The translations under genes were made by a program, and so were the position numbers. Source: Sporocytophaga sp. (GTDB lineage: Bacteria > Bacteroidota > Bacteroidia > Cytophagales > Cytophagaceae). Taken from it: a stretch of 64,000 nucleotides of DNA. Where the stretch lies: assembly GCA_024707265.1 (NCBI GenBank), contig JANQAB010000002.1, forward strand, positions 392,188 through 456,187, read 5' to 3'. A model generated the notes under the pieces. It was not told where the DNA came from, searched no databases, and was given only the letters and a program-made list of their open reading frames with translations. Within the stretch, counting starts at the first letter, position 1. Each line of letters opens with the position of its first letter. Positions 15,415 to 22,656 of this stretch are shown here, piece by piece.

Positions 15415-15881
15415 AAATTCCCTTGTTTTTATTATATAAGTCAAATGTAGAAGAAAAGGATCTTGGCAGCAATGACAATTTTGTTGCATTTTCTGCCAAT
15501 TTTAAAAATATTGAAATGAGAAATTTAAGTCAAATGTGCTGATCTTTAATATTTACTAAAACTGTGAATTACGGGAGAAATAATGACAATAAAGGGCCGT
15601 CTGTCGGACAGCCTTTATTGTTGAAGCAGAAAAAGATTTGTCTAATTTAGGTGATGTAAAAAAAGAAATTAACAAAGTATCTTCATTTAAAGAAATCTCT
15701 TCTGTTGCATCTTTGCAAAGTATATATGGCAATAACAGAAGTTGAAGGCAGAGAAGGAATTTCTTTTGAAGGATTTTTTCTTTAGTTTTTGCATTTATTT
15801 CTTGGGCAAGAGTTTTTGTCAATTCTCTGCCAGTAGGAGTCTTAAAAATTGAATCTCAATTTATTTTGTTATTATTAATTG

Positions 15882-16018
15882 TACCTGATCGGGTATAAAA
15901 TTACTGAAGTTTTCTGTTTTTGTACCCGATCAGGTATAAAAATGTAAAAAATTGTTATTTTTGTACCTGATCGGGTATAAAAGTAGCTTAGTTAGACTAA
16001 ATTATACCTTTTCGGGTA
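15882..16018. promoter_or_regulatory. Four palindromic operators upstream of hipB, 41-bp spacing
   Basis: Four 14-bp inverted repeats of form TACC-N6-GGTA lie at 15882-15895 (TACCTGATCGGGTA), 15923-15936 (TACCCGATCAGGTA), 15964-15977 (TACCTGATCGGGTA) and 16005-16018 (TACCTTTTCGGGTA). Their centres are exactly 41 bp apart. This matches in kind the TATCC-N8-GGATA operators of E. coli HipB, also four upstream of hipBA. The last site ends 15 bases before the hipB ATG, so it would cover the ribosome-binding region. Autorepression by HipB is inferred. Confidence 0.85.
15956..15963 (+). promoter_or_regulatory. Candidate -7 promoter element for the hip operon
   Basis: TATTTTTG is an exact TAnnTTTG match placed directly before operator 3. 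Transcription would start inside or just after that operator, so repressor bound there would block it. A similar but weaker TGTTTTTG precedes operator 2. No good -33 TTTG is seen. Confidence 0.45.
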
Positions 16019-16033
16019 TAAAACGCAGAATAA

Positions 16034-16279
16034 ATGGATAGTCAATTTTACCATACTGGATCTTTGAGCCAGTTTATAAAGGGGAGAAGAAAAGCGTTAG
16101 GGCTTACGCAACAAGATCTGGCAGATAAAGCAGGGGTAGGATTGAGGTTTGTAAGGGAGTTGGAAGCCGATAAACCTTCCATGCAAATGGACAAGGTTAA
16201 CCAGGTACTTTTGCTATTTGGATATAAATTAGGTCCTGTACCTATGGATCGGGAAAGGTTGATCAATGAGAAGAGCTAA
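16034..16279 (+). CDS. hipB: HipB-like helix-turn-helix antitoxin / autorepressor
   Basis: The 81-residue protein consists of a Cro/C1-type helix-turn-helix: LSQFIKGRRKALGLTQQDLA, then DKAGVGLRFVRELEADKPSM, ending in a short dimerisation tail (LFGYKLGPVP). This fits the Y4mF/HipB antitoxin group. It overlaps the next gene by 14 bases and is preceded by four inverted-repeat operators, so it is probably the DNA-binding repressor of the three-gene locus. In known HipBST systems HipB binds DNA while the small HipS protein carries the neutralising activity. Confidence 0.88.
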   Translation: MDSQFYHTGSLSQFIKGRRKALGLTQQDLADKAGVGLRFVRELEADKPSMQMDKVNQVLLLFGYKLGPVPMDRERLINEKS

Positions 16280-16595
16280 AGTTTACATGCATGAAAAATG
16301 GGCAGGAACGCTCATCGAAGATGAGAGTGGTTACCACTTTCAATACAGGAAAGAATATTTGGACGATAGTAAAGCTGAGCCAATCAGTTTAACAATTCCT
16401 TTGCAGGAAGCTCCGTTCCAGGACAAGGTCTTGTTTCCATTTTTTGATGGTCTTATTCCTGAAGGCTGGTTGTTGGAAATTGCAGAGAAAAACTGGAAAC
16501 TGAATCCAAGGGACAGAATGGGGTTATTATTAACTACTTGTCATGATTGTATAGGAGCAGTAAGCATAATACCGTTTGAAGGGGAAGAGCAATGA
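16266..16595 (+). CDS. hipS: HipS-like protein (stand-alone HipA N-terminal subdomain)
   Basis: The 109-residue protein matches only the N-terminal subdomain 1 of HipA: KVYMHEKWAGTLIEDESG at the start, SLTIPLQ in the middle and LFPFFDGLIPEGWLLE, then DRMGLLLTT..DCIGAVSI at the end. In classical HipA this region is fused to the kinase; here it is a separate gene overlapping the kinase gene by 4 bases (ATGA). By analogy with E. coli O127 HipBST, the small protein is expected to be the antitoxin that holds HipT. Assignment is by domain content and gene order. Confidence 0.85.
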   Translation: MRRAKVYMHEKWAGTLIEDESGYHFQYRKEYLDDSKAEPISLTIPLQEAPFQDKVLFPFFDGLIPEGWLLEIAEKNWKLNPRDRMGLLLTTCHDCIGAVSIIPFEGEEQ

Positions 16596-17549
16596 GCATG
16601 AGAAGATGTTTATACTGTTACCAATCCTTAGAGGAGGGAGATAAATTCGAGTACCATGGTACTTGTAGTAAAAAGATATTTGGTAACGCAGAACCACCGG
16701 AACTGGAATATAGCAATGATCAGATGTTGCAGCTTGCTGAAAAAGTAGTTCGAAGTCAGGTAACAATTACAGGTGTACAGCCAAAGCTATCTTTAGGGAT
16801 AAAGAATATGACAGGAAATGATGTTGCACAAAAGCTTACGATCACTGGTGTTTGGGGAGAATATATATTAAAGCCTCCAACTATACATTACCCGCATCTG
16901 CCTGAATTGGAAGATGTAACAATGCATCTTGCAGAAATAGCCGGGATAAAAACAGTGCCGCATGCTTTGATAAGACTTGCATCTGGAGAGCTGTCATACA
17001 TAACGAAACGTATCGACAGAAAAGGAAAGCAAAAGTTTCACATGGAGGATATGTGCCAGGTTACAGAAAGGCTTACTGAAGCTAAATACCGTGGTTCATA
17101 CGAACAGATAGGAAAGGCAATTATGAAGTATTCATCTAATCCCGGATTGCATCTGATCATTTTTTTTGAGCAAGTGATTTTTTCTTTTCTTACAGGAAAC
17201 AATGATATGCATTTAAAAAACTTTTCGCTGTTTAAAGATCCAAAGTTAGGTTATAGCCTTAGTCTTGCATATGATATGGTAGCAGCTGCACTTGTTGTGG
17301 AAAATGACGATGAAGAACTGGCTCTAAATCTTAATGGCAAAAAAGAAAAAACTTAGGCGAAAAGACTTTGAGGCATCAGCAGAACTTTTTAAAATGGATA
17401 AGAAGGTTCTTGATAACATTTTCAAACGAATGAAGAAAGCTTTGCCTAAGTGGCATACGTTTATAGAAATAAGTTTTTTACCGGAGGAAATGAAGCAGGC
17501 TTATCATGAGATGTTGGATAAAAAGGCGGGGCAGATAGGAATGATGTAG
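16592..17549 (+). CDS. hipT: HipT-like serine/threonine kinase toxin, frame broken near its C-terminus
   Basis: The kinase core lacks the HipA N-terminal subdomain. It starts with a CxxC...HxxC motif (Cys6, Cys9, His22, Cys25) that may bind zinc. The Gly-rich loop reads VTITGVQPK (Thr58, Thr60). An ILKPP lysine, the catalytic GNNDMHLKNFS and the metal-binding AYDMV follow. The frame stops at 17356 but continues in another frame to 17549 (RRKDFEASAELFKMDKK). Removing one A from the A6 run after AATGGC near 17339 gives NGKKKKLRRKDF, about 318 residues in total. HipT of E. coli phosphorylates tryptophanyl-tRNA synthetase; the target here is unknown. Confidence 0.85.
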
Positions 17550-17600: not shown

Positions 17601-17662
17601 CCAATGGGACTCGAACCCACGACCCTCCCGACCTCAGGTCGGGATGATCTACCCAACAGAAC
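17601..17662 (-). pseudogene. tRNA-like remnant with palindromic anticodon arm
   Basis: Read on the minus strand it has a D-arm-like AGTTCTGTTGGGTAGATCA, an anticodon arm CCCGA-CCTGAGG-TCGGG, a variable GGGTC and a perfect T-arm (GTGGG-TTCGAGT-CCCAT). There are no matching acceptor strands and no U33, so it is not a working tRNA. T-arm and variable loop equal those of the tRNA-His at 22582-22656. The arm is a 17-base near-perfect palindrome. The upstream GIY-YIG frame ends inside it. Confidence 0.7.
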
Positions 17663-17957
17663 TTTTATGCTTATTGATGTATTCTTTAACCTTCACTGGA
17701 TTCTTGAAGTTCTTTAGCTTTTTCTTGGTAGCTAACGCCTCAGCCCTTGTTAGAAATGTGAAATGATACAGAAGTTTCCAAGGTCCTTTATTCCGTGTAA
17801 ATACAGAACCTCCATAGTTATGACGTTTTACTCTGGCTTCTAAATTATCTGTTTGTTCAATGTAAAGGATTCCTGAAGTCTCAGACTGTAAAACAGAATG
17901 CCATAAAAAAGATAGATAACCTTGTTCTCGAAGAAGGTGAAGTGACTGGCCATGCAC
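17649..17957 (-). pseudogene. GIY-YIG endonuclease gene, N-terminus replaced
   Basis: The reading frame encodes a small GIY-YIG nuclease domain: SETSGILYIEQTDNLEARVK, then RHNYGGSVFTRNKGPWKL and FLTRAEALATKKKLKNFKN. The second motif is YIE instead of YIG, and the first 20 residues up to the GIY strand do not match the sister copy at 22087-22233 (YYTYILESETSG). The 5' end instead overlaps, on the opposite strand, a fragment of another gene. The stop codon lies inside the tRNA-like remnant. It is probably a decayed copy of a nuclease gene associated with tRNA sequences. Confidence 0.7.
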
Positions 17958-22295: not shown

Positions 22296-22370
22296 GGTGG
22301 CCAATGGGACTCGAACCCACGACCCTCCCGACCAAGGTCGGGATGATCTAACCATCTGAACTATTATAGT
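22296..22370 (-). pseudogene. tRNA-His-derived pseudo-tRNA, copy 1
   Basis: T-arm (GTGGG-TTCGAGT-CCCAT) and 3' acceptor strand (TGGCCAC) equal those of tRNA-His. The anticodon arm is the palindrome CCCGACC-TT-GGTCGGG with no readable anticodon. The 5' acceptor region is replaced by GAACTATAATAGTTC, another palindrome, so no acceptor stem can form. Confidence 0.75.
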
Positions 22371-22438
22371 TCGAATAGAGGATCATAAAGCGACTGAAAT
22401 AAAAAAAGCGACTTAAATTTAGTCGCTTTACTTTTAAG

Positions 22439-22513
22439 GGTGGCCAATGGGACTCGAACCCACGACCCTCCCGACCAAGGTCGGGATGATCTAACCATCT
22501 GAACTATTATAGT
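22439..22513 (-). pseudogene. tRNA-His-derived pseudo-tRNA, copy 2
   Basis: Same structure as copy 1, shifted by 143 bases. Conserved T-arm and 3' acceptor strand, palindromic CCCGACC-TT-GGTCGGG in place of the anticodon arm, palindromic GAACTATAATAGTTC in place of the 5' acceptor strand. Confidence 0.75.
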
Positions 22514-22581
22514 TCGAATAGAGGATCATAAAGCGACTGAAATAAAAAAAGCGACTTAAATTTAGTCGCTTTACTTTTAAG

Positions 22582-22656
22582 GGTGGCCAATGGGACTCGA
22601 ACCCACGACCCTCAGAACCACAATCTGATGTTCTAACCAGCTGAACTATGGCCACC
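22582..22656 (-). tRNA. tRNA-His (GTG)
   Basis: On the minus strand the cloverleaf is complete. The acceptor stem is GTGGCCA/TGGCCAC with the extra G at -1 expected for tRNA-His, and the D-arm is GTTC-AGCTGGTTA-GAAC. The anticodon stem TCAGA/TCTGA holds loop TTGTGGT (anticodon GTG), and the T-arm is GTGGG-TTCGAGT-CCCAT. CCA is not encoded. Two defective tandem copies follow downstream on the same strand. Confidence 0.95.

Follow-up and report, generated by a model that had tools for sequence, protein, structure and literature searches.

What are the four palindromes that stand in an even row directly 5' of a hipB gene in Sporocytophaga sp., and what fixes the distance between them? Multi-operator control is thought to govern the timing of Hip toxin release, and to our knowledge few such Hip promoters have been mapped. 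The locus lies in a stretch of 64,000 nt (the window; positions 392,188–456,187 of the forward strand of contig JANQAB010000002.1, from the 6.76 Mb assembly GCA_024707265.1). Coordinates below are window positions.

The array and its operon

Exact matching confirmed the four TACC-N6-GGTA palindromes of a first-pass annotation, with centres at 15888.5, 15929.5, 15970.5 and 16011.5 and hence an exact 41-bp period; these four are the only exact copies in the window. The features of the locus are as follows.

15880–15897 (core 15882–15895), plus strand: distal operator, fourth from hipB, TGTACCTGATCGGGTATA, exact match
15921–15938 (core 15923–15936), plus strand: third operator from hipB, TGTACCCGATCAGGTATA, exact match
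15956–15963, plus strand: -7-like box TATTTTTG (TAnnTTTG), adjoining the second operator from hipB
15962–15979 (core 15964–15977), plus strand: second operator from hipB, TGTACCTGATCGGGTATA, exact match
15998–16004, plus strand: -7-like TAAATTA, adjoining the proximal operator
16003–16020 (core 16005–16018), plus strand: proximal operator, TATACCTTTTCGGGTATA, exact match
16034–16279, plus strand: hipB, 81-aa Cro/XRE-type HTH antitoxin/repressor (TIGR03070, 83.1 bits; cut-off 71.65)
16266–16595, plus strand: hipS, 109 aa, HipA N-terminal domain alone (PF13657, 97 bits; TIGR03071, 110 bits)
16592–17356, plus strand: hipT, 254 aa, HipA_C kinase core (PF07804, 138.5 bits), ending early at a frameshift
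17334–17549, plus strand: displaced ORF that carries on the conserved hipT C-terminus (alignment with 11 relatives)

The array is not due to chance. When one mismatch was allowed, the window held 24 sites as compared with a shuffle mean of 10.35, a level reached in none of 100 shuffles. The 14-bp core is common genome-wide (120 sites, as compared with 103 for the reversed control pattern); pairs of cores 24–54 bp apart occur in the array alone in the whole genome (three pairs; control, none). The operator is better described as 18 bp, TRTACC-N6-GGTATA: the 18-bp pattern TRTACC-N6-GGTAYA has five sites in 6.76 Mb, four of which are the array (control, two). Since the fifth stands alone, this HipB probably regulates its own promoter only.

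Comparison with E. coli hipBA in the first-pass annotation had implied a hipBA operon, a reading that we revise. From its predicted products the operon is a tripartite hipBST, in which the HTH gene hipB comes first and a separate HipS, together with a HipT that has no N-terminal subdomain, replaces HipA; hipB and hipS overlap by 14 nt, and hipS and hipT by 4 nt. Both split genes were present in 111 of 132 related hipB loci and the fused form in none. The best solved relatives of HipT are the HipBST-type kinases 7vkb, 8ezr (HipT(Lp)) and 7wcf, followed by 7ab3. In the Hip kinase tree of PMC8262856, HipT proteins make up clade III; in hipBST systems HipS neutralises HipT, and HipT phosphorylates TrpS. 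In the AlphaFold2 model of HipB (mean pLDDT 80.7), helices span residues 26–33 and 37–44; we take the second of these HTH helices, about residues 37–44 (LRFVRELE), as the recognition helix. A Foldseek search of the PDB gave HipB(Lp), 8ezt, as the nearest solved fold, with the E. coli and Shewanella HipBs among the next.

The HipT reading frame is not intact: it is lost after about residue 250, with an A-rich tract near 17337–17352. The frameshift may reflect mutation, assembly error or recoding. The operon is a broken copy of hipBST, not some different system, and given the frameshift it may be decaying. HipB matches were found in eight of 58 other genomes searched and in none of the three same-genus genomes among those searched. 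A link to phages was considered and dropped, HipB having no match in a phage collection and three weak relatives in viral contigs. Just 3' of hipT lies a tRNA-like fragment (17601–17668), which has tandem copies about 4.7 kb downstream (22301–22647) and shares 91% identity with two of these and 81% with the third; ARAGORN calls only a tRNA-His at 22581–22655. The fragment may lie at the border of a mobile insertion. Beside it is an ORF with a GIY-YIG domain (17649–17957, minus strand).

Linkage to hipB and the recognition helix

If the palindromes are operators of HipB, the array should accompany the gene. At least two TACC cores (one mismatch allowed) were found upstream of 39 of the 48 TIGR03070 matches over the cut-off in 296 Bacteroidota genomes. 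Among the remaining nine, one (L144) has an array detectable by a looser method only and the others (L176–L183) have palindromes of other classes. A blind search for site pairs in 395 genomes, with 30 matches listed (L092, L095–L123), led to an intact hipB 13 times and once to a hipB broken by stops (L102). The period was 41–42 bp at all 14 of these loci; at the other 16, hipB was absent and periods were scattered from 26 to 54 bp. Raw pair counts were dropped as evidence, since the reversed control also has matches in many of the 395 genomes and coding sequence supplies the dominant share of pairs; against that control, nothing stands out except pairs some 40–42 bp apart beside hipB.

Of 15 array-like places chosen by hand, 13 adjoin hipB, as do none of five hand-chosen places unlike arrays. 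The two exceptions are L138 (period 37) and L137 (period 40). The latter, at about 1538–1591, is a two-site TATACC array with TATA flanks and has no hipB within about 1.5 kb; it adjoins genes that we take to resemble an AbiE-type toxin–antitoxin pair. Nine other loci have a 40–42-bp array and hipB (L023, L054, L071, L135, L163, L169, L179, L184 and L186), with no hipS, hipT or remnant of either detectable in the 1.4–2.7 kb downstream. Remnants of hipS are kept at L035, L095 and L119. An intact hipBST with a 41/40-bp array is carried by the conjugative plasmid pRUNSL02 of Runella slithyformis (L200).

Loci were pooled from the relatives, a genome-contig scan (76 loci), the blind pair search and the TIGR03070 survey, giving 151 with a hipB frame and 132 once identical ones were removed. 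Six of these 132 HipBs were mixed; the main classes of recognition helix, with their operators and the distances between successive sites, are as follows.

G-x-R-F-x-R: TACC operators in 98 of 104 scorable HipBs (two more loci too short); 39–42 bp in 183 of 197 distances, mainly 40–42
A-L-T-V-I/V-R: TATATG/C operators in 9 of 9; 39–41 bp in 20 of 21 distances
x-N-T-L-Y: ATCACA operators in 2 of 2; 61 bp in 3 of 3 distances
G-K-T-x-V/I-F/Y: TTACYG operators in 9 of 9; 70–73 bp in 14 of 15 distances, mostly 71–72

Judged from these sequences, the letters of an operator are matched to the recognition helix of its HipB. One locus, L066, is miscalled in this strict table, its TACC sites being plain by eye, and five loci with the G-x-R-F-x-R helix scored no array: by eye, L029, L056 and L071 have changed half-sites, and L059 and L077 have one site each. 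A first version of the table, which allowed three mismatches, was set aside for the stricter one, as it gave nine R-F loci A+T-rich motifs, mostly wrongly. As the first-pass annotation proposed, the palindromes are almost certainly operators of the adjacent HipB: throughout the phylum the array accompanies hipB, and the operator letters change with the recognition helix.

Known Hip promoters place this array. The closest precedent is the HipBST array of Legionella pneumophila rather than E. coli hipBA. HipB(Lp) binds, in gel shifts, three evenly spaced 18-nt operators with 53-bp gaps and thus a 71-bp step, the first of which overlaps the predicted promoter (PMC10653801). Both systems have a tripartite operon and, at even intervals upstream of hipB, 18-nt inverted repeats whose arms are six bases long; they differ in operator number and step (three at 71 bp as compared with four at 41 bp here) and in the recognition helix, which is GKTVIY in HipB(Lp), unlike LRFVRELE here. 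As a G-K-T helix with a 71-bp array, HipB(Lp) fits the table, in the building of which it was not used.

E. coli K-12 hipBA likewise has four operators, autorepression by HipB and cooperative binding (PMC3376134). It consists of two genes, however, and the contrast in motif and spacing that the first-pass annotation drew is borne out: the E. coli operator is TATCCN8GGATA as compared with TRTACC-N6-GGTATA here, and the O1–O2 step, read off the oligonucleotide sequence given in PMC3376134, is 28 bp as compared with 41 bp. The HipBST of E. coli O127:H6 resembles the Sporocytophaga operon in gene order, in its overlapping genes and in its HipT, the kinase relative 7ab3 (PMC10627512, PMC6581861). 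Its HipB represses its own promoter; leaky expression of hipBST or hipBT is enough, and that of hipB alone must be high (PMC10627512). The Legionella motifs are described as absent from this system (PMC10653801). In alphaproteobacterial plasmid hipBA operons with a Y4mF-type antitoxin, rows of about three CCCG-rich palindromes similarly lie 5' of hipB; these operons differ in having a fused HipA and, mostly, a step of 49–50 bp.

We found no published work on HipB operators in Bacteroidota or on HipB operator phasing, in a search that covered mainly freely available literature. A multi-operator HipBST promoter is already known; the Bacteroidota motif, the four-turn step and the helix–operator matching were not found in print within the same coverage.

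Spacing across Bacteroidota and between HipB clades

Homologous loci preserve both the motif and its spacing, and the array thereby passes a check that the first-pass annotation had set. At 107 loci with a [GSN]xR[FLY]xR helix, scored with spacing unconstrained, 199 of 209 distances between successive sites fell at 39–42 bp: 39 bp twice, 40 bp 101 times, 41 bp 89 times and 42 bp seven times. Shuffled controls, five per region, gave six distances overall and none at 39–43 bp. The ten outlying distances were 51, 60, 62, 81, 83, 92 (twice), 94, 105 and 120 bp. Those of 81 and 83 bp equal twice the usual step, the site in between being weak or absent. In Prevotella, L038 has a 41-bp step followed by one of 51 bp, and by eye L048 and L064 have 41 plus 51, summing to 92; the 51-bp step at these three loci is a change of 10 bp, one helical turn.

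Spacer identity between loci was 0.38 as compared with 0.35 for shuffled sequence (192 spacers). Spacer lengths are therefore steady while spacer letters are near random, and length is conserved without sequence; from this pattern, spacing itself appears to be under selection. That the array is a functionless relic of recent tandem duplication is accordingly very improbable, even though all 18 bp of the distal operator recur unchanged in the second operator from hipB, for spacers that are nearly shuffled-like nevertheless keep to 39–42 bp. Operators were also counted by a chained definition, which accepts 39–43 bp by design and is circular for spacing, the unconstrained counts being used there. 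By this definition, 70 loci have three operators, 15 have two, 14 have four and one has five; three is usual and the window's four is a minority count.

The step differs between clades. In a tree of 58 HipBs, the A-L-T, G-K-T and N-T-L-Y groups each fall on one side of a supported branch, and a 40-bp super-group is split from the 61/71-bp group with support of 97/97; the tree has few columns and long branches that meet, so its deeper order is uncertain. The 61-bp step belongs to a hipBST clade with ATCACA-N6-TGTGAT palindromes (L191, L193). The alphaproteobacterial plasmid operons have steps of 49–50 bp at L210, L213, L216 and L218, and by eye at L203; the exceptions are L204 (40 and 50 bp) and L215 (38 bp), and no array was found in plasmid regions L206–L209.

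The steps of the various systems differ by roughly whole turns. It is possible, at somewhat short of an even chance in our judgement, that each HipB clade inherits its own array step, set near whole helical turns, with operator letters tracking the helix and the step tracking the clade. The classes in this joint reading would be about four turns (39–42 bp; TACC and TATATG/C), five (49–50 bp; alphaproteobacterial hipBA), six (61 bp; ATCACA) and seven (71–72 bp; TTACYG and Legionella), with jumps of a single turn such as that from 41 to 51 bp in Prevotella. A strict integer-turn law was rejected, since 28 bp (E. coli hipBA) and 49–50 bp fit multiples of 10.2 bp imperfectly. If the step is clade-specific, this would point to neighbouring HipB or HipBST assemblies touching on the DNA in a way peculiar to each clade.

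Promoter geometry and the origin of the step

The Bacteroidetes -7 consensus is TAnnTTTG (PMC7366714). The first-pass annotation had noted a -7-like sequence next to its third operator, the second from hipB; counted by eye, this is TATTTTTG at 15956–15963. It is the better box of the window, the TAAATTA beside the proximal operator being imperfect, and transcription could start upstream of the proximal operator here. Many relatives have TATATTTG, TATATTTA or TATATTG at the latter position, and TAnn(T)TTR lies directly next to 54 of 99 proximal operators as compared with 29 of 195 others (Fisher p 3e-12, with kinship ignored). In 52 of 100 loci the proximal core ends 4–7 bp before the start codon; in the window this distance, to the ATG at 16034, is 15 nt. 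No separate -33 motif was visible across the surveyed loci. The right half of the next operator occupies the -33 region, and dimers on a neighbouring pair of operators would hence cover this region as well as the start region. That the sites lie on one face of the DNA, from which the first-pass annotation derived a possible stacking or bending by bound dimers, is only approximately so: the step is close to four turns, but 41 bp comes to 3.9 turns when a turn is taken as 10.5 bp, and four sites drift by about 100° in relaxed DNA.

We consider it very likely that the array serves hipBST as its autoregulatory operator region, through which HipB represses its own synthesis in an ordered manner. 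Each TATACC-N6-GGTATA palindrome would be bound by a HipB dimer by way of the helix residues L37-R38-F39-V40-R41. In many relatives the proximal operator, just 3' of a TAnnTTTR -7-like box, would overlie the expected start of transcription, and its neighbour 40–41 bp upstream would cover the -33 region; the promoter would then be enclosed by a pair of adjoining dimers, with the one or two sites farther out lengthening the bound array. A step of about four turns would hold successive dimers, or HipB–HipS–HipT complexes, on nearly the same side of the DNA, and this placement would permit a cooperative build-up in which repression tracks the level of HipB and HipBST. Several observations stand against autorepression by an ordered array: L137 has an array without a nearby hipB, a helix of 10.5 bp per turn puts the sites slightly out of phase, the -7-like sequence at the window's proximal operator is imperfect, and the frameshifted operon may be decaying. 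In Legionella, moreover, O1 is still bound after its symmetry is abolished, and possible intermediate occupancy was set by the authors against the cooperativity of E. coli HipB (PMC10653801).

The step might instead reflect how large the whole HipBST complex is, with heterohexamers touching via HipT or HipS in a DNA-bound row that stores inactive toxin. The maximum dimension of the E. coli HipBST hexamer in the crystal is 135 Å (PMC10627512) and 41 bp of B-DNA is about 139 Å, so direct contact between neighbouring complexes is geometrically possible; the hexamer also partly dimerises in solution (200 Å; PMC10627512), and HipT and HipST join HipB on DNA in vitro (PMC10653801). We nevertheless think this rather unlikely, because the nine loci without hipS and hipT hold arrays at 40–42 bp, although their loss may be recent, and because other HipBST clades with the same three genes have steps of 61 or 71 bp.

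The same 61–72-bp clades, having the same operon, weigh against a reading in which 40–41 bp is a promoter unit, repeated in tandem and blocked each time by its own dimer, so that RNA polymerase geometry sets the spacing. The box beside 54 of 99 proximal operators, and that beside the window's second operator, would suit such units; its presence at just 29 of 195 other operators and the lack of a visible separate -33 motif make tandem promoters improbable. Replication iterons or a short CRISPR-like array can scarcely be credited: the repeats are short and evenly spaced and some hipBST operons are on plasmids, but the units are palindromic, usually three or four in number, lie 5' of hipB and vary with the HipB helix.

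Autorepression by HipB through an ordered array thus remains our preferred reading. The row of sites is genuine, conserved and regulatory, a form of the HipBST multi-operator promoter in which length is constrained with unusual clarity. About a hundred natural arrays, with a fixed step, a varying motif and occasional one-turn jumps, make helically phased HipB cooperation directly testable; the helix-to-operator table would allow operators to be predicted from HipB sequence, and the orphan hipB genes that have kept their arrays provide a toxin-free test.
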